From positions 1 to 64,000 of the forward strand of contig NZ_RAZF01000001.1 in assembly GCF_003612555.1 (NCBI RefSeq): DNA of 64,000 nt, read 5' to 3'. The position numbers and the translations under genes were made by a program. This DNA comes from Acutalibacter sp. 1XD8-33. Its GTDB lineage: Bacteria; Bacillota; Clostridia; Oscillospirales; Acutalibacteraceae. The notes under the pieces were generated by a model, which did no database searches, was not told the DNA's origin, and saw nothing but the letters and a program-made list of their open reading frames with translations. Shown here one piece after another: positions 142 through 52,799 of this stretch (position 1 is the first letter of the stretch; the number at the start of each line of letters is the position of its first letter).

Positions 142-189
142 TGGTGGGCGCTAACGGACTTGAACCGCTGACCCCCTGCACGTCAAGCA
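142..189. repeat. attL core (48-bp copy of tRNA-Val 3' half)
   Basis: These 48 bases are identical to 52723-52770, which is the 3' half of the tRNA-Val gene including the encoded CCA and the anticodon arm up to its 5' stem. Base 190 (c) differs from base 52771 (g), which marks the crossover limit. The copy lacks the 5' half of the tRNA and is not a functional tRNA gene. Confidence 0.93.
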
Positions 190-1391: not shown

Positions 1392-1441
1392 GCCGGCATA
1401 TGCACCAGGTATCAAAGCGAAAGTTTGTGCGCCTTAGCCTC

Positions 1442-1470
1442 TTGTAATTACGGCGATTGCATGGTAATAT
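1442..1470 (+). promoter_or_regulatory. Weak candidate promoter of the amidoligase gene
   Basis: TTGTAA (1442-1447), a 17-bp spacer and TAATAT (1465-1470) lie 33 bases upstream of the amidoligase ATG. The -35 is poor, and the palindrome GTAATTAC overlaps it, which suggests regulated use. Confidence 0.4.
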
Positions 1471-1502
1471 ACAGACACAATCAAACCACGGAGGTAAACA
1501 AA

Positions 1503-2456
1503 ATGAACGCGAAACTTGCTAAAATGGTCGAGGACATGAAGAAACAAACCATCGGCGTGGAAATCGAAATGGCGGAAATCACCCGCCAGCAGGCCGCAAA
1601 GGTGGTAGCAAAATATTTCGGTACCGAGCGCACTGTCCGGCACGATGGCGGCAGCTATGATTCCTGGAGCTGCCAGGACCGGCAGGGCCGGACCTGGAAA
1701 ATCACCCGGGACGTAAGCATCCATGCCAGCTCCGATATCAAAAAGGCCGAACTTGGCACTCCGATCCTTACTTACGATGACCTGGAGGACCTGCAGGAAA
1801 TCGCCCGCCAGCTCCGTCACGCCGGGGCCATCAGCAACCCGGCCCACGGCTGCGGGGTACATATTCACATCGGAGCCAACGGCCACACACCCGCTTCCCT
1901 GCGGAACCTGGCAAACCTCATGGCCAGCCACGAGAGCCTGCTGGCCAGCGCCCTGAATCTCGACCAGAATCGAATGGGCACCTACTGCAAAACCGTTGAC
2001 CCCCGCTTCCTGGAGCGGCTGAACCGGGAAAAGCCCAGCACGATGGCGGCTCTGTCCGATGTGTGGTATAAAAGCCAGAACGCCGATTATGGCCGCACCC
2101 ACCACTACAATTCCAGCCGCTACCATATGCTGAACTTCCACGCCACCTTCACCCACGGCACCGTTGAATTCCGGCTTTTCCAGTTCGACAACCCCGGCGA
2201 GGGCCGCAAGGGTGGGATCCACGCAGGCCAGCTGAAGACCTACATCCAGCTGTGCCTGGCCCTGAGCCAGATGGCAAAGGTCGCTAAAAGCGCCAGTCCC
2301 CGGCCCCAGCAGAACGAGAATCCCCGGTACGCAATGCGGACATGGCTGCTCCGCCTGGGCTTCATCGGGGAGGAGTTCAAAACGGCCCGGGAAATCCTCA
2401 CCCGGCGCTTGAGCGGCGATACCGCTTTCCGGCACACCAGCCGCCCTGCAGCTTGA
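1503..2456 (+). CDS. Putative amidoligase (Amidoligase_2, glutamine-synthetase-like fold)
   Basis: A 317-aa protein with the family signatures in order: TIGVEIEM near residue 20 (metal-binding Glu pair), GCGVHIHIG near residue 120 (His-x-His) and HGTVEFRLFQFD near residue 225 (Glu/Arg of the active site). The family (COOH-NH2 ligases) is predicted to form amide or isopeptide bonds using ATP; substrates are unknown for most members. The ATG at 1503 follows GGAGGTAAACAAA; an in-frame upstream start lacks a ribosome site. It is followed by a gamma-glutamylcyclotransferase-like gene and a zinc-ribbon gene, an association that suggests synthesis and removal of a gamma-glutamyl-type amide. It probably acts in the cytoplasm. 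It is phage cargo rather than a structural gene. Confidence 0.85.
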   Translation: MNAKLAKMVEDMKKQTIGVEIEMAEITRQQAAKVVAKYFGTERTVRHDGGSYDSWSCQDRQGRTWKITRDVSIHASSDIKKAELGTPILTYDDLEDLQEIARQLRHAGAISNPAHGCGVHIHIGANGHTPASLRNLANLMASHESLLASALNLDQNRMGTYCKTVDPRFLERLNREKPSTMAALSDVWYKSQNADYGRTHHYNSSRYHMLNFHATFTHGTVEFRLFQFDNPGEGRKGGIHAGQLKTYIQLCLALSQMAKVAKSASPRPQQNENPRYAMRTWLLRLGFIGEEFKTAREILTRRLSGDTAFRHTSRPAA

Positions 2457-2522
2457 AGGACTTAGGTGCAGTTAATGCAGTTAACTGCTATGCCCATACC
2501 GAGAACCCGCCAAAGAGCGGGC

Positions 2523-2551
2523 TTTCGGTGGTAGGAGAACTATGTTATAAT
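2523..2551 (+). promoter_or_regulatory. Candidate extended -10 promoter before the cyclotransferase gene
   Basis: TATAAT (2546-2551) is preceded by TGT, giving an extended -10 (TGnTATAAT). The -35 (TTTCGG, 2523-2528, 17-bp spacer) is poor. A CCCGC...GCGGG hairpin lies just upstream (about 2508-2522). The gene may therefore be transcribed both with and independently of the amidoligase. Confidence 0.5.
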
Positions 2552-2574
2552 AAACCTGAAAGGAATGTTGAATC

Positions 2575-3054
2575 ATGAAAAAATACTACCTTGCTTATGG
2601 AAGCAATCTGAACCGGGAGCAGATGGGGTACCGCTGCCCCAATGCCCAGCCTGTGGGCACTGTCCAGCTGGAGAGCTGGCGGCTGATTTTCCGGGGGAGC
2701 GGAACCGGGAACTATCTCACCATTGAACCGGCTCCCGGCTATTCCGTGCCTGTGGCCGTGTGGGCCGTTACAAAGGCCGACGAAGCGGCCCTGGACCGCT
2801 ATGAGGGCTTTCCTGTGTTCTACCGTAAAGAAACCCTACCTATTACTTATACCGGCCTTAAAACGGCGCAGGAGCGGCAAGTGGAGGCTTTTGTCTATCT
2901 CATGAACGACGGGCATCCGGCGGGCCTGCCCACCACCCGGTACATGGACACCTGCGAGGTGGGCTACCGGGACTTTGGCTTTGACCCCGAGGCGCTGCTG
3001 GGGGCCAGGGCATACACGAGGGAGGTGATGGCGCTTGAAAGAAACGAGGGATAA
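2575..3054 (+). CDS. Gamma-glutamylcyclotransferase-like protein (AIG2/GGCT)
   Basis: A 159-aa protein opening with YYLAYGSNLN, the substrate-binding YGSN loop of the GGCT/BtrG/AIG2 fold. The catalytic Glu is in DRYEGFPVFYRKE (about residues 80-92). Known members cyclise gamma-glutamyl groups to 5-oxoproline, releasing the amine. Length and motifs are typical and intact. It follows the amidoligase and overlaps the zinc-ribbon gene by 20 nt. The ribosome site is AAGGA, with a somewhat long spacing. In this context it may remove or edit the product of the amidoligase (inference). The substrate is not known. Confidence 0.88.
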   Translation: MKKYYLAYGSNLNREQMGYRCPNAQPVGTVQLESWRLIFRGSGTGNYLTIEPAPGYSVPVAVWAVTKADEAALDRYEGFPVFYRKETLPITYTGLKTAQERQVEAFVYLMNDGHPAGLPTTRYMDTCEVGYRDFGFDPEALLGARAYTREVMALERNEG

Positions 3055-7196: not shown

Positions 7197-7517
7197 TTAG
7201 TTATTCTCATCAGCCGCGGCCAGCCCCAAGCTCACCAGGGTCAGCCGGTACTCATGGTCTATGTTCATGGCGTCAATGTCGGAAAGAGCGTCAGTGGCTA
7301 TGAAAAGGTCCGGGCCGCTGTCCATTTCCTCCAGCATGACGGTTTCGGCGCCCTCCAGCTCATCCCGGCCCAGCAGATGGAGGGGCGTCCCCTCCCAGAC
7401 TATGCCGACGGCCTCGCTTTCCGGGCATAAAACAAGGCACCCATTGGGTGCCTGCTTAATATAGGTGGGGCGCTCGGTCAGGCCGAGGCTGGCCCCGTCT
7501 CTTGTGATTTTATACAC
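7197..7517 (-). CDS. Hypothetical protein co-operonic with the DGR reverse transcriptase
   Basis: A 106-aa protein starting at GTG (7517), seven bases after AGGAGG. It overlaps the 3' end of the reverse transcriptase gene by 40 nt, so it is translated from the same message. The N-terminus YKITRDGASLGLTERPTYIKQAPNGCLVLCPE looks like a small beta-rich domain; the C-terminus is acidic (LEEMDSGPDLFIATDALSDIDAMN). No DGR function is known for such a protein. It resembles small tail-associated proteins of Clostridia phages. Confidence 0.65.
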   Translation of the reverse strand: MYKITRDGASLGLTERPTYIKQAPNGCLVLCPESEAVGIVWEGTPLHLLGRDELEGAETVMLEEMDSGPDLFIATDALSDIDAMNIDHEYRLTLVSLGLAAADENN

Positions 7518-8668
7518 TTTGTACCTCCTGTCTTGCTCATGATATCCCCGAACAGAGCGTAGCAAAGCTGCAAGAGCCGCAGCTCCCGTCCGTGGTCGTT
7601 ATAGCCTTTGTAGTACGCCAGCTGGCAGTCCATGAACTGCTTCACGGTTTTGATATCCCGCTTGCCCGCTGCCACCTGTTCCTTAAAGAGCCTCAGCTTG
7701 CGCCGGGCGCGTTTCACTCCGTCCCGGCAGCCGTTGACGATTACCTTCCCGGTTTCGCGTAAACGAAACTTAGCCTTGCAAAACTTGAAAGGCTTCGTCA
7801 GGGGGATAATTTTGCACTTGCGCTGGTTCACTGGGATCCCGATGGCCGCGAACCGCCGGACCATCTCATGGGCCAGCTTCTTGAGTTGGTCGATGTCCGG
7901 CAGAATCACATAGTAGTCGTCCATGTAATGGCCGCAGCAGTGGATCCCCTGCTGGCACTTGAGCCAGTTATCCACGGGGCTTGGCAGGGCCACCATCTCC
8001 TGCTGGGACGGTTCCACACCCAGGGGCATACCCCTGCCCGGCGCGGATGATGGCACACCCTCCACGATGGCGTCCCCCACCCACCTCAAATCCGGGCTGG
8101 TTATCAGCTGCTCATGCCGCTGGAAGATGGCCTTTCGCGGCGCGCTGGGGAAAAACTGCTTCAGGTCCATCAGGAGAACCGCGCCCGCCCGGCCATAGTG
8201 CCGGAAGTGCCAGCGGAGCTGCTCCTTCAGCTCCCGGAAATGCCAATGCAGGCCCTTGCCCTTTTGGCTGGCTCCATTGTGCTTTATCATGCTGGGGCTG
8301 TAGAGCGGCACCAGCACCTTGTTGCAATACACCTTTTCAACTTGCCTGTCCGTTACATGGGGCGCGTCAATAGGCCGCACCTTGCCCCGCTCACACAGGG
8401 TGAAGTGCGTACACTTTTGCGGCTTCCACTTCTTTTCTAGTATCAGCCTCCGGCGCTTGGCCGTGCCGGAGAAAAGGTGCATTTCGTAATTCTGGACGGA
8501 TTGTTTCCAGCGGACCCCATTGCAGCACTTGGTCCCATACTTGAACATATCCCGGTATGAGAACACTTCCTCAATGGGGCCTAGCCGGAAACACCTCTCG
8601 TCCTTATTCGCCGCCCGATATGCCTTGCGGCGTTGGTATCGCGCCTCCCGGCGCTGTTCGCTTGTCAA
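7478..8668 (-). CDS. DGR reverse transcriptase
   Basis: A 396-aa group II intron/DGR-type reverse transcriptase. The first catalytic Asp is D168 in LLMDLKQFFPS. LGVEPSQ (216-222) matches the [ILV]GxxxSQ motif typical of DGR enzymes rather than the group II intron QG form. HYMDDYY holds the YMDD active site at 248-251. The basic N-terminus (REARYQRRKAYR) fits RNA binding. Translation probably starts at TTG (8668) after GGAGGAG; no upstream ATG has a ribosome site. It reverse-transcribes the template-repeat RNA with adenine-specific errors and, with Avd, directs the cDNA into the variable repeat of the tail-fibre gene. No maturase or endonuclease domain is attached, as expected for a DGR. Confidence 0.95.
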   Translation of the reverse strand: MTSEQRREARYQRRKAYRAANKDERCFRLGPIEEVFSYRDMFKYGTKCCNGVRWKQSVQNYEMHLFSGTAKRRRLILEKKWKPQKCTHFTLCERGKVRPIDAPHVTDRQVEKVYCNKVLVPLYSPSMIKHNGASQKGKGLHWHFRELKEQLRWHFRHYGRAGAVLLMDLKQFFPSAPRKAIFQRHEQLITSPDLRWVGDAIVEGVPSSAPGRGMPLGVEPSQQEMVALPSPVDNWLKCQQGIHCCGHYMDDYYVILPDIDQLKKLAHEMVRRFAAIGIPVNQRKCKIIPLTKPFKFCKAKFRLRETGKVIVNGCRDGVKRARRKLRLFKEQVAAGKRDIKTVKQFMDCQLAYYKGYNDHGRELRLLQLCYALFGDIMSKTGGTKCIKSQETGPASA

Positions 8669-8882
8669 AATGATTCGCTCCTCCGAACAGATATCTTGTA
8701 GGGTGCCGTCTAATCTGCTTTGCCCCAGCACATGAAACGGGATAGGGCACATCCACCCGCCATGCAAGCAGCGTCCGTGCAAGGGCGTCAAAGGGCACTT
8801 TCGGCCTTACGACCGGGAAGCATCTCTCCTTCTGAAGAGGTCGTCTTTCACTTTTCAGCTACTCCGTTTGACCTATGTTATA

Positions 8883-9013
8883 TCAGAATCCGGCGCGCAC
8901 GCCGCCAGAGTAGTAGGCGTTGTTGTTGTTGTTGTAGTTGCCGTTGTTGTTGACAATGCAGAAGTTATTGTTGTTATTGTAATAGGGCGACCGCAGCCAC
9001 CACCACACCGCAG
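8883..9013 (-). repeat. DGR template repeat (TR)
   Basis: 131 bp, 88% identical to the variable repeat 9715-9845 at a constant offset of 832. The 16 mismatches are all T on the plus strand, i.e. adenine on the transcribed TR strand. Read in the fibre frame, TR would encode a run of AAC/AAT asparagine codons, the usual DGR design that avoids stop codons while allowing maximal change. It lies between avd and the reverse transcriptase. The surrounding 8669-9048 holds no gene and probably encodes the TR RNA. Confidence 0.96.
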
Positions 9014-9048
9014 AGCACGCATTTACAGAGATACACCCATATCAGGAA

Positions 9049-9522
9049 TTACTTTTTCAGTTCACGCCTCTTTTTGGCTACATAGTCCAGAGCTCCTTTC
9101 AGCAGGTCGTTTTCTTTATCGATAAGCTCTCCCAGCTTCTGGGCCATTTTGTCCAGCTTTTCCTCAGCTTTTTTAGGCGGCAGATACTGGCCGGCCGAGT
9201 TGGTGAAAGCTCCCTGGGGATTCTTCATCATGAGCCGGTAGCACCGGCCCAGCCGAACGTCCAGGGCCATAAGAGCGGCCCTGGCTTCCAGCAGGTGGAC
9301 TTCCCGCCGGTCTACCCGCAGCAGACTGGATGGGAAAATGCTGTTTGCCTTTTCCGCCTCATCCAGAACTTCCCCGGCAAGGTCGGCGGTCTTATCCGCT
9401 ATCAGCCGGGAATACCGGGCCGAAAGCCGGGACAAAAACGCCACGGTTTCATCGAATATCTCGCCGGCTGTGTTCACAAATTCCGCCTTGCTGACAGCGC
9501 GCATATCTTTCAGGACCGACAA
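9049..9522 (-). CDS. avd: DGR accessory variability determinant (Avd)
   Basis: A 157-aa all-helical protein of the bAvd/23S-rRNA-IVP four-helix-bundle type. Signatures include the long amphipathic helices SARYSRLIADKTADLAGEVLDE and LLEARAALMALDVRLGRCYRLM, the conserved KNPQGAFTNSAGQYLPPKKAEEKLDKMAQKLGELIDKE region and a basic C-terminus (AKKRRELKK). Avd forms a pentameric barrel that binds the reverse transcriptase and the TR RNA. It probably starts at TTG (9522) after AGAGGTGG; an ATG at 9504 is the alternative. The order fibre-avd-TR-RT is the canonical DGR layout. Confidence 0.92.
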   Translation of the reverse strand: MSVLKDMRAVSKAEFVNTAGEIFDETVAFLSRLSARYSRLIADKTADLAGEVLDEAEKANSIFPSSLLRVDRREVHLLEARAALMALDVRLGRCYRLMMKNPQGAFTNSAGQYLPPKKAEEKLDKMAQKLGELIDKENDLLKGALDYVAKKRRELKK

Positions 9523-9545
9523 AAAACCACCTCTTTCCGCAGAAC

Positions 9546-9551
9546 ATTATA
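9546..9551 (-). promoter_or_regulatory. Candidate extended -10 of an avd-TR-RT promoter
   Basis: On the minus strand TGCTATAATG gives an extended -10 (TGnTATAAT), 24 bases upstream of the avd start. The -35 region is poor. It could let the DGR be expressed in the lysogen independently of the late operon. Confidence 0.4.
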
Positions 9552-9699
9552 GCACAACGGCGGCAGGCGGAAAACCCCTATTTTTGAAATTTCGCGCGAC
9601 CGCCTTACGGCGGTATGGGGTAAGGGCTTTAAGGGCATTTCCCGCCGCCTCGCTGCCCTGCAGTACGGGCCGCTGGCGCGTCCCTGATGGTGGGGCCGA

Positions 9700-12204
9700 T
9701 CAGGCCGCCGATACGCAGAAGCCGGCGCGCACGCCGCCAGAGTAGTAGGCGCTGGTGTAGAAGTCGTAGGTGCCGCCGGTGTTGACAACGCAGAAGCTAG
9801 TGTTGGTATTGTAATAGGGCGACCGCAGCCACCACCACACCGCAGTAGTCACTGCGGTGTGACGATTTGCTATCTTCGGGTTTCCTGCCTTAAAGTAATC
9901 ATACTGCTGCTGGTAGGTTTGTTCGGCGCTATTTGCATAGCTTCTGCCTCCGAATACCTCAAACTCCGATAACAAGAACAGTTTGCACGGTTTGCCGGTT
10001 ACACTGGCAGCATTGTTTTGATTTCCACCCACATTGTCAGTGTATTTGGTAATAGACTTGATGGCACTCTGCAGGGCCGCAGGCAGGGCTTTCAGCAGGC
10101 TGTTGCTGGCACCGTTCAGCAGTGTCTTGTTCATGTAGCAGCCATCCCAACCACCACTGTTGCTGTTATTCGTATTCATGTTGAAGTAACCGCTGCTAGT
10201 AGTATTACTGCCGTGCTGACTGTCACACAGCGCGATCTCCGCCGTGCCTATCTTGCCCAGCAGGAAATGCACGCCGTTGCCCTCCCGGCTGCTGTTGTGG
10301 TTGATGCCAATGATGAACGCCTTGACCGTCAGGTTGGAGAATGTGAAATTACCCACCTTGCCGTTTATCACCACGTCCTTGCTGTCGCCCACGCTCCAGA
10401 AGTTGGCGGCATTGCCGGCCGCGCCCACGTCCGCTATCACGTCCCAGCTGTTATCGGCCATAGACGTAGTGGGCAGAGTAACCGTTACCGGAACCTGCTT
10501 GCTCTCGGGAGCCGTGTGGTTCGTCCCCTCCGACACGTTGATGGTGATAGTGGCGCTGCCCTTGGTTTTGGCCTGCACCGTTACCCTCTCACCGCTCACC
10601 GTGGCCGTAGCCACTGCCGCGTTGCTGGAGGTAGCCGTAATCACGCCGTCACCGGGCCGGGTCACCCCTATGATCTGGCTCATGGCCGAGGCTTTCAGGT
10701 TTAGGGAGCTTACGGACAGGGTAATGCTGCCAGGGGCCTTTGCAATCGTCCACATGACCTCTTTTGTTCCGTGCGTCCCATCCGGCCACTGATAGTTGCG
10801 GCCTGGCGTGACGTCTACCGTGTAGCCGCCCGCGTCCGTGGCGCTGGTGGGGCCGGTCATCGTCATCTTGGTTTCATCATAGCCCGTCCAGCTGGGAGAC
10901 TGCTCCGCGCCGGTATACACGTTCTCCACGCTCTGGCAGGGGACGGACTCCAGCGTGATCCGGGCGATGCTCCACGGGAAATCCTTTTCACCGCAGGTAC
11001 CGTCCGGCCAGCAATAGTTGTTGTCCAGCGTGATTTTCTGGATGTACTCCCCGGCCTCTGTCCCGCTGACATCCCCGGACACAGTCATGATATCCTCCCG
11101 GATGCCCTCCCAGGTAGGGGCTTGTTCCTCCCCGGTGTACGTCAGTTCATTGCTCTGCGTCACTGCCTCTACCGGCTGCCGGCCTATCTTCCACTTGATG
11201 GGCTTGGTGTCGTTAGAGCCGTCCGCGCCCCAAAAATAGGGCTGTTTCGGCGTGGCCAGGGCTTCATATTCACCCGCGTCCGTGGCCTTGAGGACGCCTG
11301 TCAGCAGCACTGTGGCACTGTCGTAACCGTTGAGCACCAGGGCCTGTTCCTCGCCGTTGTAGGTCAGTTCCCCATACTGCGTGGGGATATTCTGGATGGC
11401 GCGGTCCGTGCTGGCCGATTCTTCCAGGGTTTTCAGAAACGCGGTCAGGGGCTTGCCCTCATACATGATCTGGCTGGCGTCCACACCAGCGCCGGTGATC
11501 ATCCACAGGTAGTTTCCTTCCTCGTCCTGCCCGATGCAGATGTACTCCTTTTTCGCCTCGGCGTCAAAGTAGTGCTGGCCGGGTTCCGCGGGGGTGTCCG
11601 GGCCAGGAGGCTCCGTCCCCGGCTCCAGATTACCGCTCCCCGCTTCCTCCAGCGCCTGGTCCAGCACCTGCTTAATAGCCAGCGTCAGCCCAGGATGGGC
11701 CTGGGGGTCGGCGTTGTGGTCGGCCAGCAGCTGGGCCAGCATAGCCGGGGTTACCATGGCCTTGCTGCCCTCCAGGCTGATTTTTATCTCCACATCGTTG
11801 GTGATGTAGATGAGGCCCTGCACCTCCAGGGCAAAGCTGGGGTTGTCCGACACCGAGGGGATCTCGATACCGTTCTCATGCTCGTCCTGCAGGATGAACA
11901 GCAGCTGTTCCGGCTCGTCATCCAGACGCGCATACACGCCGATCTGGTGCAGCTGGTAGCCCTGTTCAATGCCCACATTGTTGATCTGCACCCGGACCAT
12001 CTTGCCCTCCGGGGTCTTTTCCAGCCCCAGCAGGCCCAGCTCATGCCGCTCCCCGCATACGTCCGTAAGACCGGCCAGCTCGTCCTCCGCGGCCTTTTCC
12101 GTGCCGCCCCAGGCGCTGCAAATGGTCATCTTCCGGCCGGCCATCAGGTCATTGAGCATTTCATTGCCCACGTCCGTGACAGCTCTCTGCTGCCAGTAGG
12201 CCAT
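9700..12204 (-). CDS. DGR-targeted tail-fibre / receptor-binding protein
   Basis: An 834-aa protein. Residues 1-165 form a tail-collar/fibre N-terminus (DUF3751-like: WQQRAVTDVGNEML...GYQLHQIGVYARLD) that attaches to the baseplate. Three ~72-aa tandem repeats (about 272-342, 345-416, 418-488) share a Y(N/T)GxEQ...W motif and resemble bacterial MBG/Ig-like modules. A BIG2-like Ig domain spans 490-577. Residues 585-834 form a C-terminal display domain with VWWWLRSPYY, resembling the C-type-lectin-like (DUF6273-type) folds used by DGRs. Its last 44 codons are the variable repeat, so the exposed ligand-binding residues can be rewritten. The ATG at 12204 follows GGGAGGTGGTTGTA. It is separated from the upstream tail gene by a structured element. 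Confidence 0.92.
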   Translation of the reverse strand: MAYWQQRAVTDVGNEMLNDLMAGRKMTICSAWGGTEKAAEDELAGLTDVCGERHELGLLGLEKTPEGKMVRVQINNVGIEQGYQLHQIGVYARLDDEPEQLLFILQDEHENGIEIPSVSDNPSFALEVQGLIYITNDVEIKISLEGSKAMVTPAMLAQLLADHNADPQAHPGLTLAIKQVLDQALEEAGSGNLEPGTEPPGPDTPAEPGQHYFDAEAKKEYICIGQDEEGNYLWMITGAGVDASQIMYEGKPLTAFLKTLEESASTDRAIQNIPTQYGELTYNGEEQALVLNGYDSATVLLTGVLKATDAGEYEALATPKQPYFWGADGSNDTKPIKWKIGRQPVEAVTQSNELTYTGEEQAPTWEGIREDIMTVSGDVSGTEAGEYIQKITLDNNYCWPDGTCGEKDFPWSIARITLESVPCQSVENVYTGAEQSPSWTGYDETKMTMTGPTSATDAGGYTVDVTPGRNYQWPDGTHGTKEVMWTIAKAPGSITLSVSSLNLKASAMSQIIGVTRPGDGVITATSSNAAVATATVSGERVTVQAKTKGSATITINVSEGTNHTAPESKQVPVTVTLPTTSMADNSWDVIADVGAAGNAANFWSVGDSKDVVINGKVGNFTFSNLTVKAFIIGINHNSSREGNGVHFLLGKIGTAEIALCDSQHGSNTTSSGYFNMNTNNSNSGGWDGCYMNKTLLNGASNSLLKALPAALQSAIKSITKYTDNVGGNQNNAASVTGKPCKLFLLSEFEVFGGRSYANSAEQTYQQQYDYFKAGNPKIANRHTAVTTAVWWWLRSPYYNTNTSFCVVNTGGTYDFYTSAYYSGGVRAGFCVSAA
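9715..9845 (-). repeat. DGR variable repeat (VR)
   Basis: 131 bp covering residues ~787-830 of the fibre protein. It differs from TR at 16 positions, all opposite template adenines, giving 12 amino-acid changes. Where TR would give Asn (or one Ile), VR now encodes Thr, Ser, Gly, Asp, Phe, Tyr or Val. The constant 3' segment encoding SGGVRAGF (GC-rich, identical to TR) corresponds to the initiation-of-mutagenic-homing region. The stop codon lies just beyond. Confidence 0.96.
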
Positions 12205-12330: not shown

Positions 12331-13356
12331 TTATACTGATAATTTTTGATATACTCCCAGCACGGCCACGCCGAACTTTGTTGTGGCTGTGCTTTTGGGC
12401 CATGATAATTTCCCGGGCCGTACCGATGCCCGGTGACGCATGGTCTGACTCAGCACTACCATTCCCGCGGCCCCGGACACCTCTGCTTTCGGCCAGCGGA
12501 GCGTCACCCTGGGGACATCCACGGAACACACGCTGGACATCCCCAGCAGAGCGCCGCCCAGCAGCGCCCGGGTCTTTACCCTGGGCCATTGCAGGCTCAC
12601 TCTGGGAAGTTCAACCGAACACACGCCAAAGGCGCCCAGATGGACCGCCCCAGCCAGAGCGCCTGTCCTGACGCGCGGCCAGCTGGCCTTTATCTCCGGC
12701 AGCTCCACCGAGCATACGCCTGAAGAAGCCAGAAACACAGCGCCGGATGCGGCGCCGACCTCCGACCGGGGCCAGTGGGCATCGGGCTTCAGGTCAACGG
12801 ATACTTGCCCCGCGTGGCTCAAAAGGACAGCCCCCGCATATGCCAGGGCTGTGGGCGCTTTTATGAAATATTCGATACTGTCTAAATGGGAGCGCAGATT
12901 TTTACATACGTTGATTGCATTGATGACCTGGCGGTCTTTTTCCAAGCTGAAGATGTCATCCGTTATATTCACCCGCATCTTGAAATGGTACGGCTCCCCG
13001 CCATACTCAAACCATTCCTGCATCTGGCTCCCGCCGAAGATGGTTTGCGTAGCCCAATTGATAGCCTTTGGCGTCCCCAGCTTGGCATAAAAGGGCAGGG
13101 TACCCGCTATCAGCTCCCGCTTTATCTCAATGGGGAAACTGTCCTCATAGGCCGGAGCCCGCAGTTCTACAGCCAGGTAATCCAGTACCCACTCATCCAG
13201 ATTTTCCACCACGGCCATGAGCCTGGTACGATCCACAAGGGACATGAGCCTCTGCTTCTCCTGCAGGATGGCATACCCGATGGACATGGTTTCCGGGTTA
13301 TAAGCCATCTGGTTGTTTATCAGGTCTGTGATTTTACCGTCCCGAAGGTCAATCAT
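12331..13356 (-). CDS. Tail protein I (P2 gpI-like) with five 31-residue C-terminal repeats
   Basis: A 341-aa protein. The N-terminal ~170 residues match phage tail protein I (baseplate wedge tip): KRELIAGTLPFYAKLGTPKAI and a C-terminal wedge ending SLDSIEYF-like. The remainder is unusual: five tandem repeats of exactly 31 residues, with Trp-Pro at 195, 226, 257, 288 and 319 and the consensus VCSVELPxVxLxWPR. The repeats probably form a beta-rich extension linking baseplate to fibre. The ATG at 13356 overlaps the stop of the baseplate J gene. It is followed by the three-way-junction element and the fibre gene. Confidence 0.82.
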   Translation of the reverse strand: MIDLRDGKITDLINNQMAYNPETMSIGYAILQEKQRLMSLVDRTRLMAVVENLDEWVLDYLAVELRAPAYEDSFPIEIKRELIAGTLPFYAKLGTPKAINWATQTIFGGSQMQEWFEYGGEPYHFKMRVNITDDIFSLEKDRQVINAINVCKNLRSHLDSIEYFIKAPTALAYAGAVLLSHAGQVSVDLKPDAHWPRSEVGAASGAVFLASSGVCSVELPEIKASWPRVRTGALAGAVHLGAFGVCSVELPRVSLQWPRVKTRALLGGALLGMSSVCSVDVPRVTLRWPKAEVSGAAGMVVLSQTMRHRASVRPGKLSWPKSTATTKFGVAVLGVYQKLSV

Positions 13357-14503
13357 CTTCCAGCCCCCCATACTTCACGGACAGCTCGCCCAGCTGGGCC
13401 ACCTGGGTTTCCATTACCGGGGTGAAGATGGGGCTTGCCAGCTCCACCCTTTTTGCCCCGGCCTCCCGGATCCGCCGCACCAGCTCCGTAGGGTTCACGT
13501 CCCGGCCTATCTCTGTGGTCTGCCAGATGATGAACTCTTGGATCGCTTTCTGCACCTCTGCCTGGATGGCAGCCGCTGTGGCCTGGTTGGAGCGGGCGAT
13601 GCGGTAGGTGAGCTTGAGGTCAAAGAACTTGACATCCGGCGCAGACACAGTCACATGGTCGGTCATGGGCCGTACTTCCTCCCTGGCCAGATACTCTGTC
13701 AGGCCCTGCACCACTTCCTCACCCGGCAGACTTCCATCCCGCATAATGATGTACACTACCACTTCACCTGGCGTGGGGCTAACAGGCCGCACGGAGCCGA
13801 TATCCGTGTTGTAGGTCTTGGTCCAGAAGGTATAAGCGTCCTGAGAACCGGCGGTACTGTAGCCGGAGGGGGCCAGGAACGTGCGCTCCGCCAGGCTCTT
13901 GTCGTCCTCCACATCCGTGCCGCCAGCCGTAATGGTGACATTTTCCACGCTCTCAACATAGGGCAGGGGATCTACCAGGATATTGAGCTGTCCCGGCAAG
14001 AAGCCGTTGCCATCCACACCGCTGACGGTACACTCCGCTTCCACGTCCGCGAACATCTCCCCGGCGGGCACCTCCCCATACTGCAGGGTCTTGAAATACA
14101 GATTATTTCCGTTGGTCACCCGGGTTTCCGCCGGGATGGCGCTGGCGTAGGGCTTCTCCGCCGAGAGAGTAAACCGCAGGGTAGTCCGGGCCGGGCTGGC
14201 CCCGTGCCGGGTGACTCCCCTGGTTCCGGCCAGGTTGTCCAGAAAGCCGCCATAGCTGTACTTGAGCAGGTCCTGCTTCCCGGCCCTGTCCACGAACTGT
14301 TCTATCTGGTACAGGTCCAGGGCGATAGCGTAAAGCTGCACCCGCACAGGGTCGGCGGCGCCCAGGCTTACGGTTTTCCCTGTGACCTCCTTATACCGCT
14401 TTTCATAGTTGCCCACCAGCCTCTGCATCATAGCGTCCAGGCTGTCGTTCTCTATGAAGGAGATATCCGGCAGGTCATACACCGATTTTAAGAGGTTATC
14501 CAC
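13349..14503 (-). CDS. Baseplate J-like protein (gp47/P2 gpJ)
   Basis: A 384-aa protein. It has the Baseplate_J pattern: DPVRVQLYAIALDLYQIEQFVDRAGKQDLLKYSYGGFLDNLAGTRGVTR near the N-terminus, and SLAERTFLAPSGYSTAGSQDAYTFWTKTYNTDIGSVRPVSPTPGEVVVYI in the middle. It forms the inner wedge of the contractile baseplate. The start is GTG (14503) after GGTGG; a TTG two codons upstream is possible. It overlaps the gp25-like gene upstream and tail protein I downstream. Confidence 0.92.
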   Translation of the reverse strand: MDNLLKSVYDLPDISFIENDSLDAMMQRLVGNYEKRYKEVTGKTVSLGAADPVRVQLYAIALDLYQIEQFVDRAGKQDLLKYSYGGFLDNLAGTRGVTRHGASPARTTLRFTLSAEKPYASAIPAETRVTNGNNLYFKTLQYGEVPAGEMFADVEAECTVSGVDGNGFLPGQLNILVDPLPYVESVENVTITAGGTDVEDDKSLAERTFLAPSGYSTAGSQDAYTFWTKTYNTDIGSVRPVSPTPGEVVVYIIMRDGSLPGEEVVQGLTEYLAREEVRPMTDHVTVSAPDVKFFDLKLTYRIARSNQATAAAIQAEVQKAIQEFIIWQTTEIGRDVNPTELVRRIREAGAKRVELASPIFTPVMETQVAQLGELSVKYGGLEDD

Positions 14504-14807
14504 TTCCAATCACCACCTTTACGCCCAAGCTGCCCGACGGATCGGGGACAAAACTCACATCCCGCACACGCACACGGGGCTCCCATTTCTCTATGGCGTC
14601 TATCACCTCCACAGCCATCATGCTCTGGGCCGTGTCCAGCGGGTAATCCAGAGCGGAGGTATCAATGCCGAAATCCCGGTAGAGCGGGTCAGTGCCCACC
14701 GGGGTCAGAAGGATGTTTTCGATGTTTCGGACGACCTCCCGCCGCAGGGCCTCATCGCCCCCGGCGCGGTCAAAGGATATTTCTATTCCGGACAGGGTGA
14801 TACTCAT
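14496..14807 (-). CDS. Baseplate wedge protein (gp25-like / gpW)
   Basis: A 103-aa protein of the GPW/gp25 family: N-terminal beta, then REVVRNIENILLTPVGTDPLYRDFGIDTSALDYPLDTAQSMMAVEVIDAIEKWEPRVRVRDVSF, which contains the expected EPR motif. It bridges sheath and baseplate. The ATG at 14807 follows AGGGGGCG. It overlaps baseplate J by eight bases. Confidence 0.9.
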   Translation of the reverse strand: MSITLSGIEISFDRAGGDEALRREVVRNIENILLTPVGTDPLYRDFGIDTSALDYPLDTAQSMMAVEVIDAIEKWEPRVRVRDVSFVPDPSGSLGVKVVIGSG

Positions 14808-31077: not shown

Positions 31078-31709
31078 TTTGCACCAGTCCCTTTGATCTG
31101 GCTCTCATCCACACCCGCCACCACAAAGGCCCGGAGCAGCTGAGTCACGCCCCCCTGCATCTCCTTTTCAATGCGCCGGGCCTCTGTGGGCTCCACCGCC
31201 CCGCCGATCCGGCTGATCAGCCGCCCCGGCAAAGACAGCGCAAACTTCTTAAAAGCCACGAAGAACCGGGCGTAGTCCAGGGTCGCTTCCTCCACGGGGA
31301 TGTATTTTCCCGCAGCTATGTCCAGCTTTAGGCGGTGCAGTTCATTTTGGGTACCCTTGAGGGCCAGGTCGGCCTCCAGCTTCTGCTGCTTCAGCTCCTG
31401 CTCCCTCTCGGAGCCGGTCTTGCCGTGGGCGGCGTCCCGCAGGTAGCGGATGTACGCCTGGATGGTGGGCACCAAGTCATACTGCCGGCCGTTGGAGGTT
31501 TCTGTGGCCGGGAGCACACCGTCCTTTGTCAGTTGCTGGATGTGCCGCTCCCCCACACCGAACAGCTTTGCAATGACGCGGGTGGGATACATGGAGCCGC
31601 CGGTTATTTCGCCATTTGCACTCACGATGAGTTCAACTCCTTCCAAAATCAATTCCAGGGTATCGAGCGCAAGATTGCGCCGGTTGGTTTTTTGCCGTCC
31701 CCTGCTCAT
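31074..31709 (-). CDS. Terminase small subunit (Nu1-like)
   Basis: A 211-aa protein with an N-terminal winged HTH (TRVIAKLFGVGERHIQQLTKDGVLPATETSNGRQYDLVPTIQAYIRYLRD) as in lambda Nu1. A helical oligomerisation region (EQELKQQKLEADLALKGTQNELHRLKLDIAAG) follows. It recognises the packaging site and recruits the large subunit. It overlaps the neighbouring genes by four bases at each end. Confidence 0.9.
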   Translation of the reverse strand: MSRGRQKTNRRNLALDTLELILEGVELIVSANGEITGGSMYPTRVIAKLFGVGERHIQQLTKDGVLPATETSNGRQYDLVPTIQAYIRYLRDAAHGKTGSEREQELKQQKLEADLALKGTQNELHRLKLDIAAGKYIPVEEATLDYARFFVAFKKFALSLPGRLISRIGGAVEPTEARRIEKEMQGGVTQLLRAFVVAGVDESQIKGTGAK

Positions 31710-33073
31710 AACCTCACCGCTTTCTCCCCGGTGTATTCCTCCCAGCGCCGAACGATGACATCACAGTTGCGCTCATCCAGTTCCATGAGGTAGGCCGTGC
31801 GGCCCAGCTGCTCACAGGCCATGAGCGTGGATCCGCTGCCGGCAAAGAAATCACCTACACACCACTCCGGCTTGCTGGAATTGTTCACCAGCCTGCCAAC
31901 CAGGGAGACCGGCTTCATGGTGGGGTGCATATCGTTCCGGCTGGGCCGTTTTTCGTAGAGGACGGTGGTCAGGTCTTTGTACTGCTTGACGTAGCCCTCC
32001 ACAAAGGTCAGCAGTTCCTGCTTGCTCATTTTCTTAAAGTTCGGCTCATCCTCCAGAAGGATGGTATCCTGGGAGCGGTCATTGATAAAGTAATGGCCCG
32101 CCCCTTCCTTCCAGCCGTACAGAATAGGCTCGTGCCGCCATTGATAATCCTGCCGGCCGAGGACAAAGCTGGACTTTTCCCAGATAAGGCATTGCGCCAG
32201 CTTAAAGCCCGAATCGCTGAACGCCTCCCGGAACTTGGTGCCGGTGCTTTCCGCATGGAAGATGTAGGCAGCCGCGCCCTTCTTCATCACGTCAAAGGCG
32301 CAGCGGAACGCCGCCCGAAGGAATTTGTAAAAGTCGGCGGAGGTCATCTTGTCGTTCTTTATCTCGCTGGTGGCCCTGGGGCCTGTCTGGCCCAGGTAAT
32401 TTTTCAGGAACACGGCCTTGCCGCCGTAGTCCACGTTGTAGGGCGGGTCTGTTACCAGCAAGTCCAGCTGGGCGCCGTTCATGAGAAGGGCCACGTCCTC
32501 ACTCTCGGTGGCGTCGCCGCACAGCAGACGGTGGCGGCCCAGCTGCCAGATCTCTCCCCGGTTGGTGACGGGAGTCTGGATCTCAGCCGCCGCAGCATCC
32601 GGGTCGAATTCATCATCCTGGGCCTCATCGGGAATGTCCAGGGACTGTATCAGGTCCTCCAGCTCGTTCCGGGTGAAGCCCGCAGCGGTGAAGTCATAGC
32701 CGTCCAGATCCAGGCCCACCAGGATCTCCTTCAGCTTCTCAGTGTCCCAGCGCCCGGAAATCTTATTGAGGGCAAGGTTGGCCATGCGCTCCTTGTTCTT
32801 GTCCTGGATGTTCACCACGACTACACTTGCCTCGGTGTAGCCCAGGTCCATCATCACCCGGCGGCGCTGATGCCCGCCGATGATGGTGCCGTCAAAGTTC
32901 ACCACGATGGGCTCCACGTAGGTGTTCTCCTGGATGCTTTTCTTCAGGGCCTCGTACTCCGGGTCGCCGGGGGCCAAAGGTTCTCGGGGGTTGTAGTCCG
33001 CGGGGACCAGGTCAGCCAGCCGACGGACTTCCATCTTCATGTCGGCCCCGGCGGTCATGGGGGTGATTTCCAT
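31706..33073 (-). CDS. ParB-domain DNA methyltransferase
   Basis: A 455-aa two-domain protein. Residues ~14-145 form a ParB/Sulfiredoxin-like N-domain with IIGGHQRRRV (64-73). Residues ~170-455 form an N6-adenine or N4-cytosine methyltransferase with TDPPYNVDYGG (DPPY at 209-212) and, near the C-terminus, the SAM-binding FFAGSGSTLMACE; the order is that of the beta class. Such fused enzymes are common next to phage terminases and may methylate phage DNA against restriction or during packaging. The ATG at 33073 follows AAAGGAGG; the open frame continues upstream without a start signal. Confidence 0.92.
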   Translation of the reverse strand: MEITPMTAGADMKMEVRRLADLVPADYNPREPLAPGDPEYEALKKSIQENTYVEPIVVNFDGTIIGGHQRRRVMMDLGYTEASVVVVNIQDKNKERMANLALNKISGRWDTEKLKEILVGLDLDGYDFTAAGFTRNELEDLIQSLDIPDEAQDDEFDPDAAAAEIQTPVTNRGEIWQLGRHRLLCGDATESEDVALLMNGAQLDLLVTDPPYNVDYGGKAVFLKNYLGQTGPRATSEIKNDKMTSADFYKFLRAAFRCAFDVMKKGAAAYIFHAESTGTKFREAFSDSGFKLAQCLIWEKSSFVLGRQDYQWRHEPILYGWKEGAGHYFINDRSQDTILLEDEPNFKKMSKQELLTFVEGYVKQYKDLTTVLYEKRPSRNDMHPTMKPVSLVGRLVNNSSKPEWCVGDFFAGSGSTLMACEQLGRTAYLMELDERNCDVIVRRWEEYTGEKAVRL

Positions 33074-33086
33074 ATGGTTTCCTCCT

Positions 33087-33557
33087 TTAGACGCCCCTGC
33101 GCCATATCTCCGAGAGGTTTTCCAGGGCCCGCAAAACTTCCTTGCGGGTCTTGCTGGCTTCCTCGGGGAGAGGCTGGGCGGCGTCAAATTCGTTTATGTA
33201 CCCTCGGATGATATCCTCTATCACAAAGCCGCTGAGGTCGTCCTGAGCGGGGGCCTTGTTCCCGGCCTTGTCGTCCCAATATTCACTTGCCCCCACCTTG
33301 CGCGGGGCGGTGCCGAAGGCGCTCACCCATTCCGGCAGGCTCTCGTTCACGGCGTCAAACCGCAAGCCCCACTTGCGGCATGCATCCACCGCTGCCTGGA
33401 GCAGCTCCCCCTCCCGGCAGGTCCAGAGTATCAGAGCCGCGCCGGATCTCTGGGCTATCAGGGCCTCGGATATGACCCTCCAGTTGGGCTTGCCGATGCC
33501 GGGGTAGGAGTTGGTGCATATGCACCCGTCAAAATCTATCGCTATCACTTTTCTCAT
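33087..33557 (-). CDS. HAD-superfamily phosphatase-like protein
   Basis: A 156-aa protein with the HAD motif I IAIDFDGCICTNSYP (D8 and D10). A central GAALILWTCREGELLQAAVDACRKWGLRFDAVNE supplies motif II (Thr in WTCR), and a DD-containing SEYWDDKAGNK supplies the acidic motif. Phage members of this type hydrolyse phosphate esters; the substrate here is not known. It is the first gene after the long non-coding leader, so it is probably the first gene of the late transcript. Confidence 0.82.
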   Translation of the reverse strand: MRKVIAIDFDGCICTNSYPGIGKPNWRVISEALIAQRSGAALILWTCREGELLQAAVDACRKWGLRFDAVNESLPEWVSAFGTAPRKVGASEYWDDKAGNKAPAQDDLSGFVIEDIIRGYINEFDAAQPLPEEASKTRKEVLRALENLSEIWRRGV

Positions 33558-42144: not shown

Positions 42145-43866
42145 CTATATATCCTTTCCGAATCTGTATTTTGTCACCGCCACCGCAAACTCATCTATCT
42201 CACTTGCCCACAGGCAGGTGCCGGGGCCGTTGAGCCGCTCCCAGATCAGCGGGAAGCCTCCGATTCCGTCAAACAGGCTGGCCATCGTTGCGGGGTGTTC
42301 ATAGCAAGCGCACAGGCGCTTGAGCACCCAGGCCCAGGGCGGTATGGCTATGGAGTTGCCCAGGGCCGTGTACCGGGCGCTGGCAGTGCATTCCTTGTGC
42401 CGCTTGCCTTTGCTGTCCACCCAGGGGCCGATGTCCGTCCACCCGTCCGGGAAACCCTGGAGCCTTTCGCACTCCAGTTCCGTCAGGCGGCGCACAATAC
42501 GGGCGCGCCTTACCACGTTGTTCAGATTAAGGCTCTGGCCCCCGGTGCTTTTGGCCTGCAGGGTGCCGTTTACCTCTGCACACTCCCTGCCGTTGCGGCA
42601 GTCCACGGCGGCCACGATAGGCTGTTCATGGTTGCAGTTCAGGGTGGGGCTGGCGTCTACGGTAATTTCCGCGTTGGATTGCCCGGTAGCCATGACCAGC
42701 GGAGTGTTGTTCCCGCCTGTCCCAAATTGCCGGGCTACTGTGGGAGCCACATCCAGAGGCCCTGTCAGGCGGCTGTCTTGGCCGTGGTTTTCGTACACAG
42801 CGCATTCCTGCTCTGCCGTAAGGGTGGGGGCCTGCTCCGGCTGGTAGCCGATACTCCCGGCCTTTGCCCCAGCGAAAGGCTTGAATCCAGCGCACACCAC
42901 CGGCTGGTGGCCGTGTGCCTCTGCCCGGAGGGTCCCAGCCTTGTCGGCGCTGACGTCCATCAAGCTGCCGCCCTGGTCGTTCAAGCACAGCACCGCATGG
43001 CGGTCTACCGTGTTCAGGGTGTACATAGGGCCGTCTGAAATGCCGGAGCCGTTCATGCCTACGTCCCGATCCACGGCGTTGCCCTGGAGGCTCCATACTT
43101 TTTCCCTCATGGCTGGGGGTAGGTGGTCTGTCAAAACACAGGGGTAGCTTTCACCCTCTGAGGGCGCGGCGGTAAAAAGAGCCTGGTCATTATGGCAGGC
43201 CAGCGTCCCGGACTTCTCTGTCTGAAGGAGTGCCCCTTTGCCGCCGCCCTCACACCCGGTCCTCATGCTGAGCGTGACTGCAGTATTAGCGCCGCCTCCA
43301 GCTCCGGGGGCAGGGGTTTCCCCCTCCGGCTGGCCCGGTTCAATATCCCCGCACACGCTTTTGCGGACAAAGAGTATTTCTGGTGCGGATTGTCCTCCAA
43401 AATCTGCGACAAGCGCGATCCTACGTCTACGCTGGGGGACTCCCCAAAACTGAGCGTCGAGAACTCTGTAAGCGATTGACCATCCGTCTCCCATGACGCA
43501 TCCGCTGGTAGTCCACTTCCCCTTTGGAGGTCCAGGTATAACGGCGGACGGGTCCGCAATTTTCGCCGTTTCCTCAAGGACGGCTCTGAAATCGGCCCCC
43601 TTGTTGCTGCTAAGTGCCCCGACCACGTTCTCCCATACCATGTACCGGGGTCGGATGAACCGGCCCTCGTTTCCTCGCTCTGCATCTGCCTGCCTCATCT
43701 CCTTTATGATTCTGATCTGCTCCATAAACAGCCCGCTGCGCTCGTCAGTGAGCCCCTGCCGCTTTCCGGCTATGCTAAGCCCCTGACAAGGTGAGCCGCC
43801 GATTACTACGTCCACCGTGGGCGCGGTATGGCCGTCTATGGCGGTTATATCTCCTAAATGTTCCAT
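42145..43866 (-). CDS. dcm: Circularly permuted DNA cytosine methyltransferase
   Basis: A 573-aa C5-cytosine methyltransferase with the motif order changed. The N-terminus begins just before motif IV (IGGSPCQGLS, catalytic Cys27). Then come motif VI (WENVV, ENV at 79-81), motif VIII (VPQRRRRIAL) and a long variable target-recognition region. Motif IX (LTELECERLQGFP) and motif X (ARYTALGNSIAIPP) follow. Finally, motifs I and II (MASLFDGIGGFPLIWERL...WASEIDEFAVAVTKYRF), which normally open the protein, form the C-terminus. All catalytic motifs are intact. The ATG at 43866 (MEHLGD) follows AGAGG; a longer start at 43929 is possible. It probably protects phage DNA from restriction. Confidence 0.92.
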   Translation of the reverse strand: MEHLGDITAIDGHTAPTVDVVIGGSPCQGLSIAGKRQGLTDERSGLFMEQIRIIKEMRQADAERGNEGRFIRPRYMVWENVVGALSSNKGADFRAVLEETAKIADPSAVIPGPPKGKWTTSGCVMGDGWSIAYRVLDAQFWGVPQRRRRIALVADFGGQSAPEILFVRKSVCGDIEPGQPEGETPAPGAGGGANTAVTLSMRTGCEGGGKGALLQTEKSGTLACHNDQALFTAAPSEGESYPCVLTDHLPPAMREKVWSLQGNAVDRDVGMNGSGISDGPMYTLNTVDRHAVLCLNDQGGSLMDVSADKAGTLRAEAHGHQPVVCAGFKPFAGAKAGSIGYQPEQAPTLTAEQECAVYENHGQDSRLTGPLDVAPTVARQFGTGGNNTPLVMATGQSNAEITVDASPTLNCNHEQPIVAAVDCRNGRECAEVNGTLQAKSTGGQSLNLNNVVRRARIVRRLTELECERLQGFPDGWTDIGPWVDSKGKRHKECTASARYTALGNSIAIPPWAWVLKRLCACYEHPATMASLFDGIGGFPLIWERLNGPGTCLWASEIDEFAVAVTKYRFGKDI

Positions 43867-43930
43867 ATGTTGTATACCTCTATTTTTGGAAAATCTCCGC
43901 CAGCCACCGCTGGCTGACGGGGTTTCCATC

Positions 43931-51451: not shown

Positions 51452-51568
51452 AAGTAATGAGGCCGGATAGGGCACATCATCACCTAGACAATGATATTGT
51501 ACCCCATCCCGCCCTTAAAAGCAAGAGGGAACGTATTTTCTCTTTGCAGAAAGGACGGTTTTATTTTC

Positions 51569-52660
51569 ATGAAAAAAAGAAAGGACGGACGCTATCAGAA
51601 AAAAGTCACCCTGTCAGATGGCCGGCAGAAGCTGGTCTATGGCCGCACCATTGCCGAGGTGAATCAGGCCGCCGACGCTCTCCGCGACCAGGACCGGCAG
51701 GGACTGGTAGTGGGGGATACCACCACGGTGGATGAGTGGGCAAAGACTTGGTTTGCCACCTACAAGAGCGGCCTGCGAAACAACACCCAGAACGTCTACC
51801 GCAACGCCTATAACAACCATATCCTGCCGCTTTTGGCTACGCTCAGGCTGCAGGACATCCGCCCGGTTCACGTCCGGCAGGTGATGCAGTCTGTGGCTGA
51901 CAAATCAGAGTCCCTCCAGGGGAAAGTGCTTGTCACCATGCGGCAGTTGTTCACCACCGCCAGGCAAAACGGCCTGATGCAGGGGGACCCAACCGAAGGT
52001 ATCAAGATTACGCCTCACGCCCGGCCAAAGAAAAAGGAATACCTCACCCTGGAAGAACAGGACGCTCTTATTGCCGCTCTGGAAAGCGCCGATCCCCGCG
52101 CCCGGTGCTTTGTGGGGCTGTGCCTTTACTGCGGCCTGCGCCGGGAGGAGGCCCTGGGACTCCAGTGGGGGGATATTCAGGGGGACAAGCTGACGGTGAA
52201 TCGGGCGGTTACGTTCCTGAACAACCAGCCGGATCCCATTCAGGAACTGAAAAGCAAATCTGCCCACCGCACTCTCCCGGTTCCCCAGCGCCTGCTGGAC
52301 TTACTGGCCGCTGTGCCCCGGACGAGCCTTTACATCATCACCTGCGCCGATGGGGAAATCATGACCCGTATCGGGTTCCGCCGGATGTGGGACAAAGTCA
52401 AACGGGTTTCTCCCTGTGAGGTGAGGCCCCATCAGCTCCGGCACAGCTATTGCAGTAACCTCTACCGAGCAGGCATCGACCTAAAGACCGCACAGTACCT
52501 TATGGGCCACGCCACCATCCAGATGACCGCCAACATATACACCCACATGGAGAAAGAGGACGCCTCTGCCTCCCTTTTCCAGCTGGAGCGGTATCTTTCC
52601 GGCGGTAGTCAGACCGGGGGTGATTTTTCAAAAAGTAGTCAAAAGGTAGTCAACCCATGA
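51569..52660 (+). CDS. int: Tyrosine integrase
   Basis: A 363-aa tyrosine recombinase. The N-terminal arm-binding domain is AP2-like (KRKDGRYQKKVTLSDGRQKLVYGRTIAEV). The SAM-like core-binding domain spans about residues 55-150. The catalytic domain has R191 (CGLRREEAL), H288-x-x-R291 (HQLRHSY), H314 (LMGHA) and the nucleophile Y324 (IYTHM). It integrates the phage at tRNA-Val. The ATG at 51569 is preceded by a weak AAGGA site. The C-terminus is nearly identical to the partial integrase at 1-93. Its 3' end overlaps arm-type sites. Confidence 0.95.
   Translation: MKKRKDGRYQKKVTLSDGRQKLVYGRTIAEVNQAADALRDQDRQGLVVGDTTTVDEWAKTWFATYKSGLRNNTQNVYRNAYNNHILPLLATLRLQDIRPVHVRQVMQSVADKSESLQGKVLVTMRQLFTTARQNGLMQGDPTEGIKITPHARPKKKEYLTLEEQDALIAALESADPRARCFVGLCLYCGLRREEALGLQWGDIQGDKLTVNRAVTFLNNQPDPIQELKSKSAHRTLPVPQRLLDLLAAVPRTSLYIITCADGEIMTRIGFRRMWDKVKRVSPCEVRPHQLRHSYCSNLYRAGIDLKTAQYLMGHATIQMTANIYTHMEKEDASASLFQLERYLSGGSQTGGDFSKSSQKVVNP
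52605..52652 (+). repeat. Right integrase arm-type sites (GTAGTCA x3)
   Basis: GTAGTCA starts at 52605, 52635 and 52646. The last two are 11 bp apart, mirroring the left pair at 286/297, and both pairs share GTAGTCAAAARGTAGTCA. They lie inside or just after the 3' end of the integrase gene. A TGACCACAC direct repeat follows at 52664-52681 and also at 81-98. Confidence 0.62.
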
Positions 52661-52722
52661 TTGACCACACCTGACCACACAAAGCAAAAACCCCAGAAAC
52701 CGCATGATTCCTAGGGTTTTCA

Positions 52723-52770
52723 TGGTGGGCGCTAACGGACTTGAACCGCTGACCCCCTGCACGTCAAGCA
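52723..52770. repeat. attR core (48 bp) within the tRNA gene
   Basis: Identical to 142-189. It is the 3' half of the intact tRNA-Val gene, so integration leaves the tRNA functional. Confidence 0.93.
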
Positions 52771-52799
52771 GGTGCTCTAGCCAGCTGAGCTAAGCGCCC
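52723..52799 (-). tRNA. tRNA-Val(GAC)
   Basis: A 77-nt gene with encoded CCA. GGGCGCT pairs with the 3' acceptor strand AGCGCCC, a discriminator A precedes CCA, and the T arm is CGGTTCAAGTCCG. The anticodon stem CCTGC/GCAGG encloses TTGACGT, giving anticodon GAC. It is the integration target of this prophage and of the left-hand element. Confidence 0.93.

Follow-up and report, generated by a model that had tools for sequence, protein, structure and literature searches.

A complete diversity-generating retroelement with an RT-2 RNA spacer in an Acutalibacter prophage

The closest described relatives of the diversity-generating retroelement (DGR) considered here are carried by the Faecalibacterium phages FP_Taranis, Roos and Pioen, and a more distant reference is the DGR of Bordetella phage BPP-1. 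Our element lies in a prophage of Acutalibacter sp. 1XD8-33, within positions 1 to 64,000 of contig NZ_RAZF01000001.1; this whole 64,000-nucleotide stretch is hereafter called the window. The reverse transcriptases (RTs) of Pioen, Taranis and Roos are 63-65% identical to that of the window over 87-93% of the length, the spacer of these phages between template repeat (TR) and RT is also an RT-2 RNA, and the avd-like gene aligns, as does the target domain of Taranis. PMC11792537 reports DUF6273 in the targets of Roos and Pioen and variable repeats (VRs) that vary in reads. The Faecalibacterium phages differ from our prophage in host genus, and the target described here is longer than that of Taranis. 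The BPP-1 DGR has the same order of target, avd, TR, spacer and RT, the same adenine rule (all 17 mismatches detected are at A) and a structured spacer in the same place, whereas its RT is 19% identical, its spacer belongs to RF03022 rather than RT-2 and its target is Mtd instead of a DUF6273 protein.

We read the locus, with a probability of about 0.9, as a complete DGR of the avd-TR-RT layout that diversifies the C-terminal DUF6273 domain of the prophage tail fibre through RT-2-primed copying. TR and VR form a gapless alignment of 130 nt, at an offset of 832 and with 15 mismatches. An initial annotation, made from the letters alone, had described a gapless repeat of 131 bp; its offset and the absence of gaps hold, and its outermost base, 8883, proves to be the first base beyond the repeat. 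Over those 131 nt there are 16 mismatches, all at template A (hypergeometric chance 5.3e-11), and all had been taken for adenine mutagenesis. That count is rejected here since, besides 8883, position 8889 is fixed: TR reads GGA or TGA up to this column, and VR GGC or TGC, in every one of the 17 loci compared (the window plus 16 more, close kin among them). Because random incorporation would hardly give TR A and VR C in all 17, we read this mismatch as a fixed difference between the initiation of mutagenic homing sequence (IMH) and its TR counterpart (IMH*). In the mutagenised core, the remaining mismatches all stand at TR adenines (14/14, with 34 A in 124 nt; P = 1.3e-9), so that part of the earlier claim stands. 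Summed over the 17 loci, 266 of 278 TR/VR mismatches are at A, a count leaning towards the adenine rule since the detector tolerates A mismatches more than others. As a control for chance, the detector was also run on 10 strand-stretches of 8 kb from other parts of the window and returned nothing. In the frame of the target gene, AAC and AAT account for 14 of the 45 TR codons. When TR was searched against the host genome, just two of the 18 matches were strong, TR and VR themselves; the next had E = 0.15, and no second VR was seen in this search. The locus thus holds a near-repeat with core mismatches confined to TR adenines, a VR at the 3' end of the target with an IMH/IMH* difference, and, adjoining TR, an RT related to known DGR RTs.

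The proteins agree with this layout, and RT, avd-like frame, TR and target were confirmed, on the minus strand, at the positions given in the initial annotation (Table 1). The RT matches Pfam RVT_1 (1e-14) and the PHROG 1423 reverse transcriptase family (1.1e-71), its probable start, judged by eye, is the TTG at 8668, and of the PDB sequences only the BPP-1 RT (8ub7, E 1.5e-9) matches it with E no higher than 0.01. In an RT tree, the rows nearest to the window RT are RTs of loci with TR/VR pairs; the tree was built without retron or intron RTs and is hence no test of a DGR against those. The avd-like protein is predicted to form a helical bundle (predicted local distance difference test score 88), for which Foldseek gave weak matches to chains B and C of 8ub7 (probability 0.72 and 0.63, E above 1) and a match to 2gsc at probability 1.00 and E 0.15. 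The target matches DUF6273 (1.8e-19) and the PHROG 27381 tail fiber family (6.6e-29), with Big_2 below cut-off, and its position and fold suggest that it binds the receptor. A further known system close enough for comparison is Treponema denticola variable protein 1 (2y3c), presumably a DGR target as well. The reading frames of RT, avd-like gene and target are all open.

The spacer scores 168.3 bits over the full RT-2 covariance model, for which the curated cut-off is 40, and no match to the Phage_DGR RNA RF03022 was found in 8500-9100 at E up to 1. RF03022 is the spacer of BPP-1, in the same place, and likewise of L046, L051 and L071. RT-2 was present in all 11 loci retrieved through RT similarity, in L027-L034 (8/8), L013, L043 and L171, and in 20 of 20 loci chosen from 80 for having a TR and being distinct; its start adjoins the TR end in each locus measured. 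Among 99 genomes (the host's own and related ones) RT-2 exceeded the cut-off in five, each with a TR/VR pair and some coinciding with loci counted from other searches, and in an even sample of 398 genomes of the phylum the window's own was the one genome in which it did so. The sub-cut-off matches L014 (26 bits) and L026 (37 bits) had no TR/VR pair in their 3.2-kb loci; both hold open reading frames with a YxDD box that by eye look like Toutatis-type RTs. Spacers without any Rfam match over cut-off made up 6 of 8 DGR loci in one set and 15 of 20 in another. The assignment of RT-2 as a DGR spacer RNA is well supported, and it places a family that had no stated role, since the Rfam table names RF03077 just 'RT-2 RNA', of type 'Gene; sRNA'. 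No literature tying RT-2 to DGRs was found in the titles and starts of abstracts among the papers listed, and with Weinberg 2017 and Handa 2025 outside reach no priority is claimed. RF03077 is named by one paper found, Rfam 15, in a table, and the DGR-phage paper PMC8143477 cites Weinberg 2017 for DUF2800/DUF2815. In another DGR, the TR-to-RT spacer of L111 matches Rfam RT-14 (RF02921, 58 bits, at 2834-2975), and this second RT-n family may also be a DGR RNA.

How RT-2 could prime copying is suggested by a short duplex between the TR 3' edge and the spacer. The nucleotides that follow TR's GGA junction are complementary to those preceding the AAGG box of the spacer. The proposed initiation core, too, has by eye a similar layout in spacers of the other groups. 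When partners were searched for freely, own ones scored better than swapped ones both in the 46 loci of the RT-2 set and in the 35 of the Toutatis-type set, with 0 of 5000 permutations each, and in a fixed register, applied to 30 of the 46 RT-2-type loci, 5.20 of 6 positions were paired against 4.17 (0/20,000), permutations that treat related loci as independent. The register test dropped the other 16 loci, some because their TR end had been placed too early or because their IMH is different. Positions 3-6 of the duplex show several standard pair types. The box pattern varies by set, being of AAGG type or, in the BPP-1-like set, GGUCAGC. Set building left out loci without TR (26/96, 7/60, 12/56 and 2/28), those without a box (5, 4, 1 and 4) and near-copies; among viral loci, 47 of 217 gave no TR/VR pair, with a median length of 4.8 kb against 6.7 kb, and L036 ends directly after its TR-like match. 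In BPP-1 itself, AUCACCU/AGGUGGU forms seven pairs, two bases ahead of A56 of the spacer, which we take to be the published priming base. The GGUCA beside TR in RT-2 was considered as a counterpart of the BPP-1 priming box and rejected, its GGUC pairing with GACC inside RT-2. The duplex is supported by covariation in two of the four groups.

From these parts the following course is proposed. A transcript running from avd to RT would carry TR followed by the RT-2 RNA, and the latter, by analogy with BPP-1, would bind the RT/Avd complex. The UUCUGA at 8888-8883 would pair with UCAGAA at 8835-8830 next to the AAGG box, as covariation among relatives supports, and a spacer adenosine at this duplex would be the starting point for the cDNA. 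TR would then be copied upstream of 8889 with its adenines misread; a start just upstream of 8889 fits the fixed TR A and VR C there. Finally, the cDNA would replace VR by homing at IMH, aided, if BPP-1 is a guide, by a stem-loop 3' of VR, and the outcome would be new residues on the terminal domain of the fibre.

Upstream of the box, RT-2 contains an AGUA module whose side differs between groups. Among RT-2-type loci, 28 of 46 have a strict AGUA hexamer on the upstream side of the box alone and 1 on the downstream side alone; for Toutatis-type loci these numbers are 17 and 2 of 35. The BPP-1-like loci show the opposite pattern, with 19 of 34 downstream only and 2 upstream only, as do the Aeromonas-like loci, with 9 and 0 of 19; the rest, 56 of the 134, have none. 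Shuffles, which for hexamer and stem counts kept base composition only, expect 0.7-3.9 upstream and 2.4-6.2 downstream. The full module (hairpin, GAA and outer stem) occurs upstream and downstream in 26 and 0 RT-2-type, 2 and 0 Toutatis-type, 0 and 17 BPP-1-like, and 0 and 5 Aeromonas-like loci, the strict filter thus finding just 2 of the 35 Toutatis-type loci. In the RT tree, built by a quick method and rooted at the midpoint, a single strongly supported group of 52 rows takes in 28 of the 31 'downstream' rows and 2 of the 47 'upstream' ones; it consists of every BPP-1-like row and of 18 of the 19 Aeromonas-like ones. The BPP-1 RNA family has an AGUA-type element at the 3' end of its consensus, degenerate in BPP-1 itself. 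Within 38 upstream-type rows the module pairs covary (81.9% of cells paired against 58.1% shuffled, 0/500), for a structure chosen by eye on the same rows, in an alignment where RNAalifold gave no pairs. A covariance model from these rows, run against 83 BPP-1/Aeromonas-type sources, returned 14 rows, none significant: L107 (E 0.04), L077 (E 0.6) and L120 (E 5.5) fall, as predicted, between box and RT, the match in L090 (E 2.0) runs across its box, and the other ten lie elsewhere. The side change is well patterned and a good lead, homology of the two forms being not proven. A circular permutation of the whole spacer was also considered and dropped; the AGUA module alone changes side. We hold it about an even bet that DGR RNAs of distant groups share one architecture, in which a TR-end duplex sets the copying start beside an AAGG- or GGUCAGC-type core and an AGUA-hairpin-GAA module precedes the core in most groups sampled and follows it in the lineage to which BPP-1 belongs, most simply by one side change; RT-2 and the RT-14 of L111 would then both be DGR RNAs.

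Natural variation in related elements agrees with the earlier expectation that VR differences would be confined to adenines, as close pairs concentrate them at A columns (those where both TRs have A; upstream denotes about 400 nt before VR). VRs differ between L031 and L033 at 19/32 A columns and 1/93 others, with 0/400 upstream differences; between L032 and L033 at 20/32 and 2/93 (4/400 upstream); between L031 and L032 at 21/31 and 1/93 (4/400); between Taranis and Roos at 11/29 and 1/105 (16/400); and between the window and L027 at 18/31 and 4/93 (59/397). That this prophage's own DGR copy is active we infer from such sequence comparisons.

Several observations weigh against this account. 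Neither Pfam nor the structure search gave the avd-like protein a significant match to a known Avd, and the relatedness of the permuted loci, noted above, bears on the duplex statistics. Covariation of the duplex was unclear for the BPP-1-like set (488, 783 and 834 of 5000 permutations, with differing windows) and at most weak in the Aeromonas-like set (678 and 203 of 5000). Five more distant VR pairs are less clean and show no clear adenine rule; between the window and L029, for example, 8/27 A columns and 21/90 others differ, and the TRs themselves differ. Furthermore, the stem-loop downstream of VR is imperfect in the window and in L027, and a near-identical IMG/VR record carries the same VR, giving no variation within this very phage.

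The last two points are also what favours an element complete in sequence and idle in this prophage, its VR recording old homing, a reading that we regard as unlikely. A perfect stem of at least 7 bp lies within 70 nt of VR in 37 of 46 loci (the window counted among the 46), and other imperfect stems near VR score as well as the one at 9667..9684. However, the frames of RT, avd-like gene and target are open and the RNA scores over its full length. L027 shares the imperfect stem at the aligned place, and homing probably went on despite it because the L027 VR differs from that of the window mostly at A columns. PMC12875486 also describes the BPP-1 stem-loop as important, not strictly required. 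That the RT-2 RNA might instead be a leader regulating RT translation, with no part in cDNA priming, is suggested by its 12-nt overlap with the start of the RT frame and its coverage of a GGAGG-like ribosome-binding site, seen by eye. We consider this improbable, since a pure leader would not need covariation with TR, and RT-2 both adjoins the TR end in each locus measured and holds a strand covarying with the TR 3' edge. It also occupies the place of the BPP-1 spacer, which according to PMC12875486 recruits bRT-Avd and supplies an internal adenine that primes within IMH*. Least credible of all, to the point of being almost negligible, is another kind of retroelement (a retron, a group II intron or a defence RT) beside a chance repeat. 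Pfam does name the protein merely RVT_1, yet its sole match of solved structure is a DGR RT, the adenine rule is seen, its nearest tree rows (in the tree lacking retron and intron RTs) belong to TR/VR loci, and the TR/VR mismatches of close relatives are not spread over other bases. A complete DGR, probably primed through RT-2, remains our preferred reading.

The setting is a prophage of about 52.6 kb, bounded by tRNA-Val, an integrase gene and direct repeats, in a host genome (G000) of 3.6 Mb; genome G010 falls in the same genus. Its genes include terminase, portal, sheath, tape-measure, baseplate, holin, endolysin, helicase and DNA polymerase, covering tail, head, packaging, replication, lysis and integration. 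This gene content and the attachment (att) repeats support the initial view of a complete DGR aimed at the tail fibre of a prophage. The IMG/VR record matches the window at 100% identity over 12,788 bases, VR included, and a phage megablast with 4000-28000 as query gave no matching record. Adjoining amidoligase-like and gamma-glutamyl cyclotransferase-like genes at 1425-3054, near the left prophage end, are possibly a cargo pair. The prophage also encodes a protein that combines ParB-like and DNA methyltransferase parts (31706-33187) and a second DNA methyltransferase (42145-43929). A type II hammerhead ribozyme above cut-off was found at 10064-10152 (minus strand) in the related prophage represented by L016 and L027; none was reported in the window. 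The IMG/VR entries numbered 2889787374 comprise two prophages with different DGRs, L016 of RT-2 type and L131 found with the Toutatis RT.

Table 1. Coordinates of the DGR and of prophage features in the window
Feature	Position	Strand	Details
DGR reverse transcriptase	7478..8668	-	396 aa; YMDD and LGVEPSQ; TTG start
RT-2 RNA (RF03077)	8657..8876	-	TR-to-RT spacer, from just after TR to RT start
Proposed initiation core AAGGAG-N-UUCCC-hairpin	8797..8831	-	limits by eye
Spacer strand UCAGAA	8830..8835	-	would pair with TR 3' edge
AGUA module GGUC ... AGUA-hairpin-GAAA ... GACC	8839..8873	-	RT-2 alignment, pair covariation over 38 rows; limits by eye
UUCUGA at TR 3' edge (IMH* side)	8883..8888	-	proposed partner of 8830-8835
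Template repeat (TR)	8884..9013	-	gapless alignment to VR
Fixed IMH*/IMH difference	8889	-	TR A, VR C; 17/17 loci
avd-like accessory gene	9049..9522	-	157 aa; TTG start; PHROG 30516, unknown function, 5.1e-66
Imperfect stem-loop 3' of VR	9667..9684	-	one A/G mismatch; aligns with perfect stems in L028, L029, L030
Target tail fibre	9700..12204	-	N-terminal tail-fibre part, Ig-like repeat region, C-terminal DUF6273
Variable repeat (VR)	9716..9845	-	3' end of target gene
Tail_P2_I and Baseplate_J genes	12331..14509	-	directly upstream of target; Pfam/PHROG
Second direct repeat	82-113 / 52663-52694		32 bp
Left att repeat	142..189		48 bp; partner 52723-52770; direct-repeat search
Integrase gene	51491-52660	+	
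Right att repeat	52723..52770		inside tRNA-Val 52723-52799

As such, this DGR is ordinary and complete, with a common avd-TR-RT layout and close relatives in Faecalibacterium phages, and it adds one more gut-phage DGR. The wider interest lies in its RNA. If our reading is true and not yet in print, it would place an RNA family that has no stated role. If true, pairing of the TR end with the spacer beside the AAGG box would be a simple rule for locating the copying start in DGRs far from BPP-1, and the analysis would offer a testable claim on the build and evolution of the RNA that controls copying.
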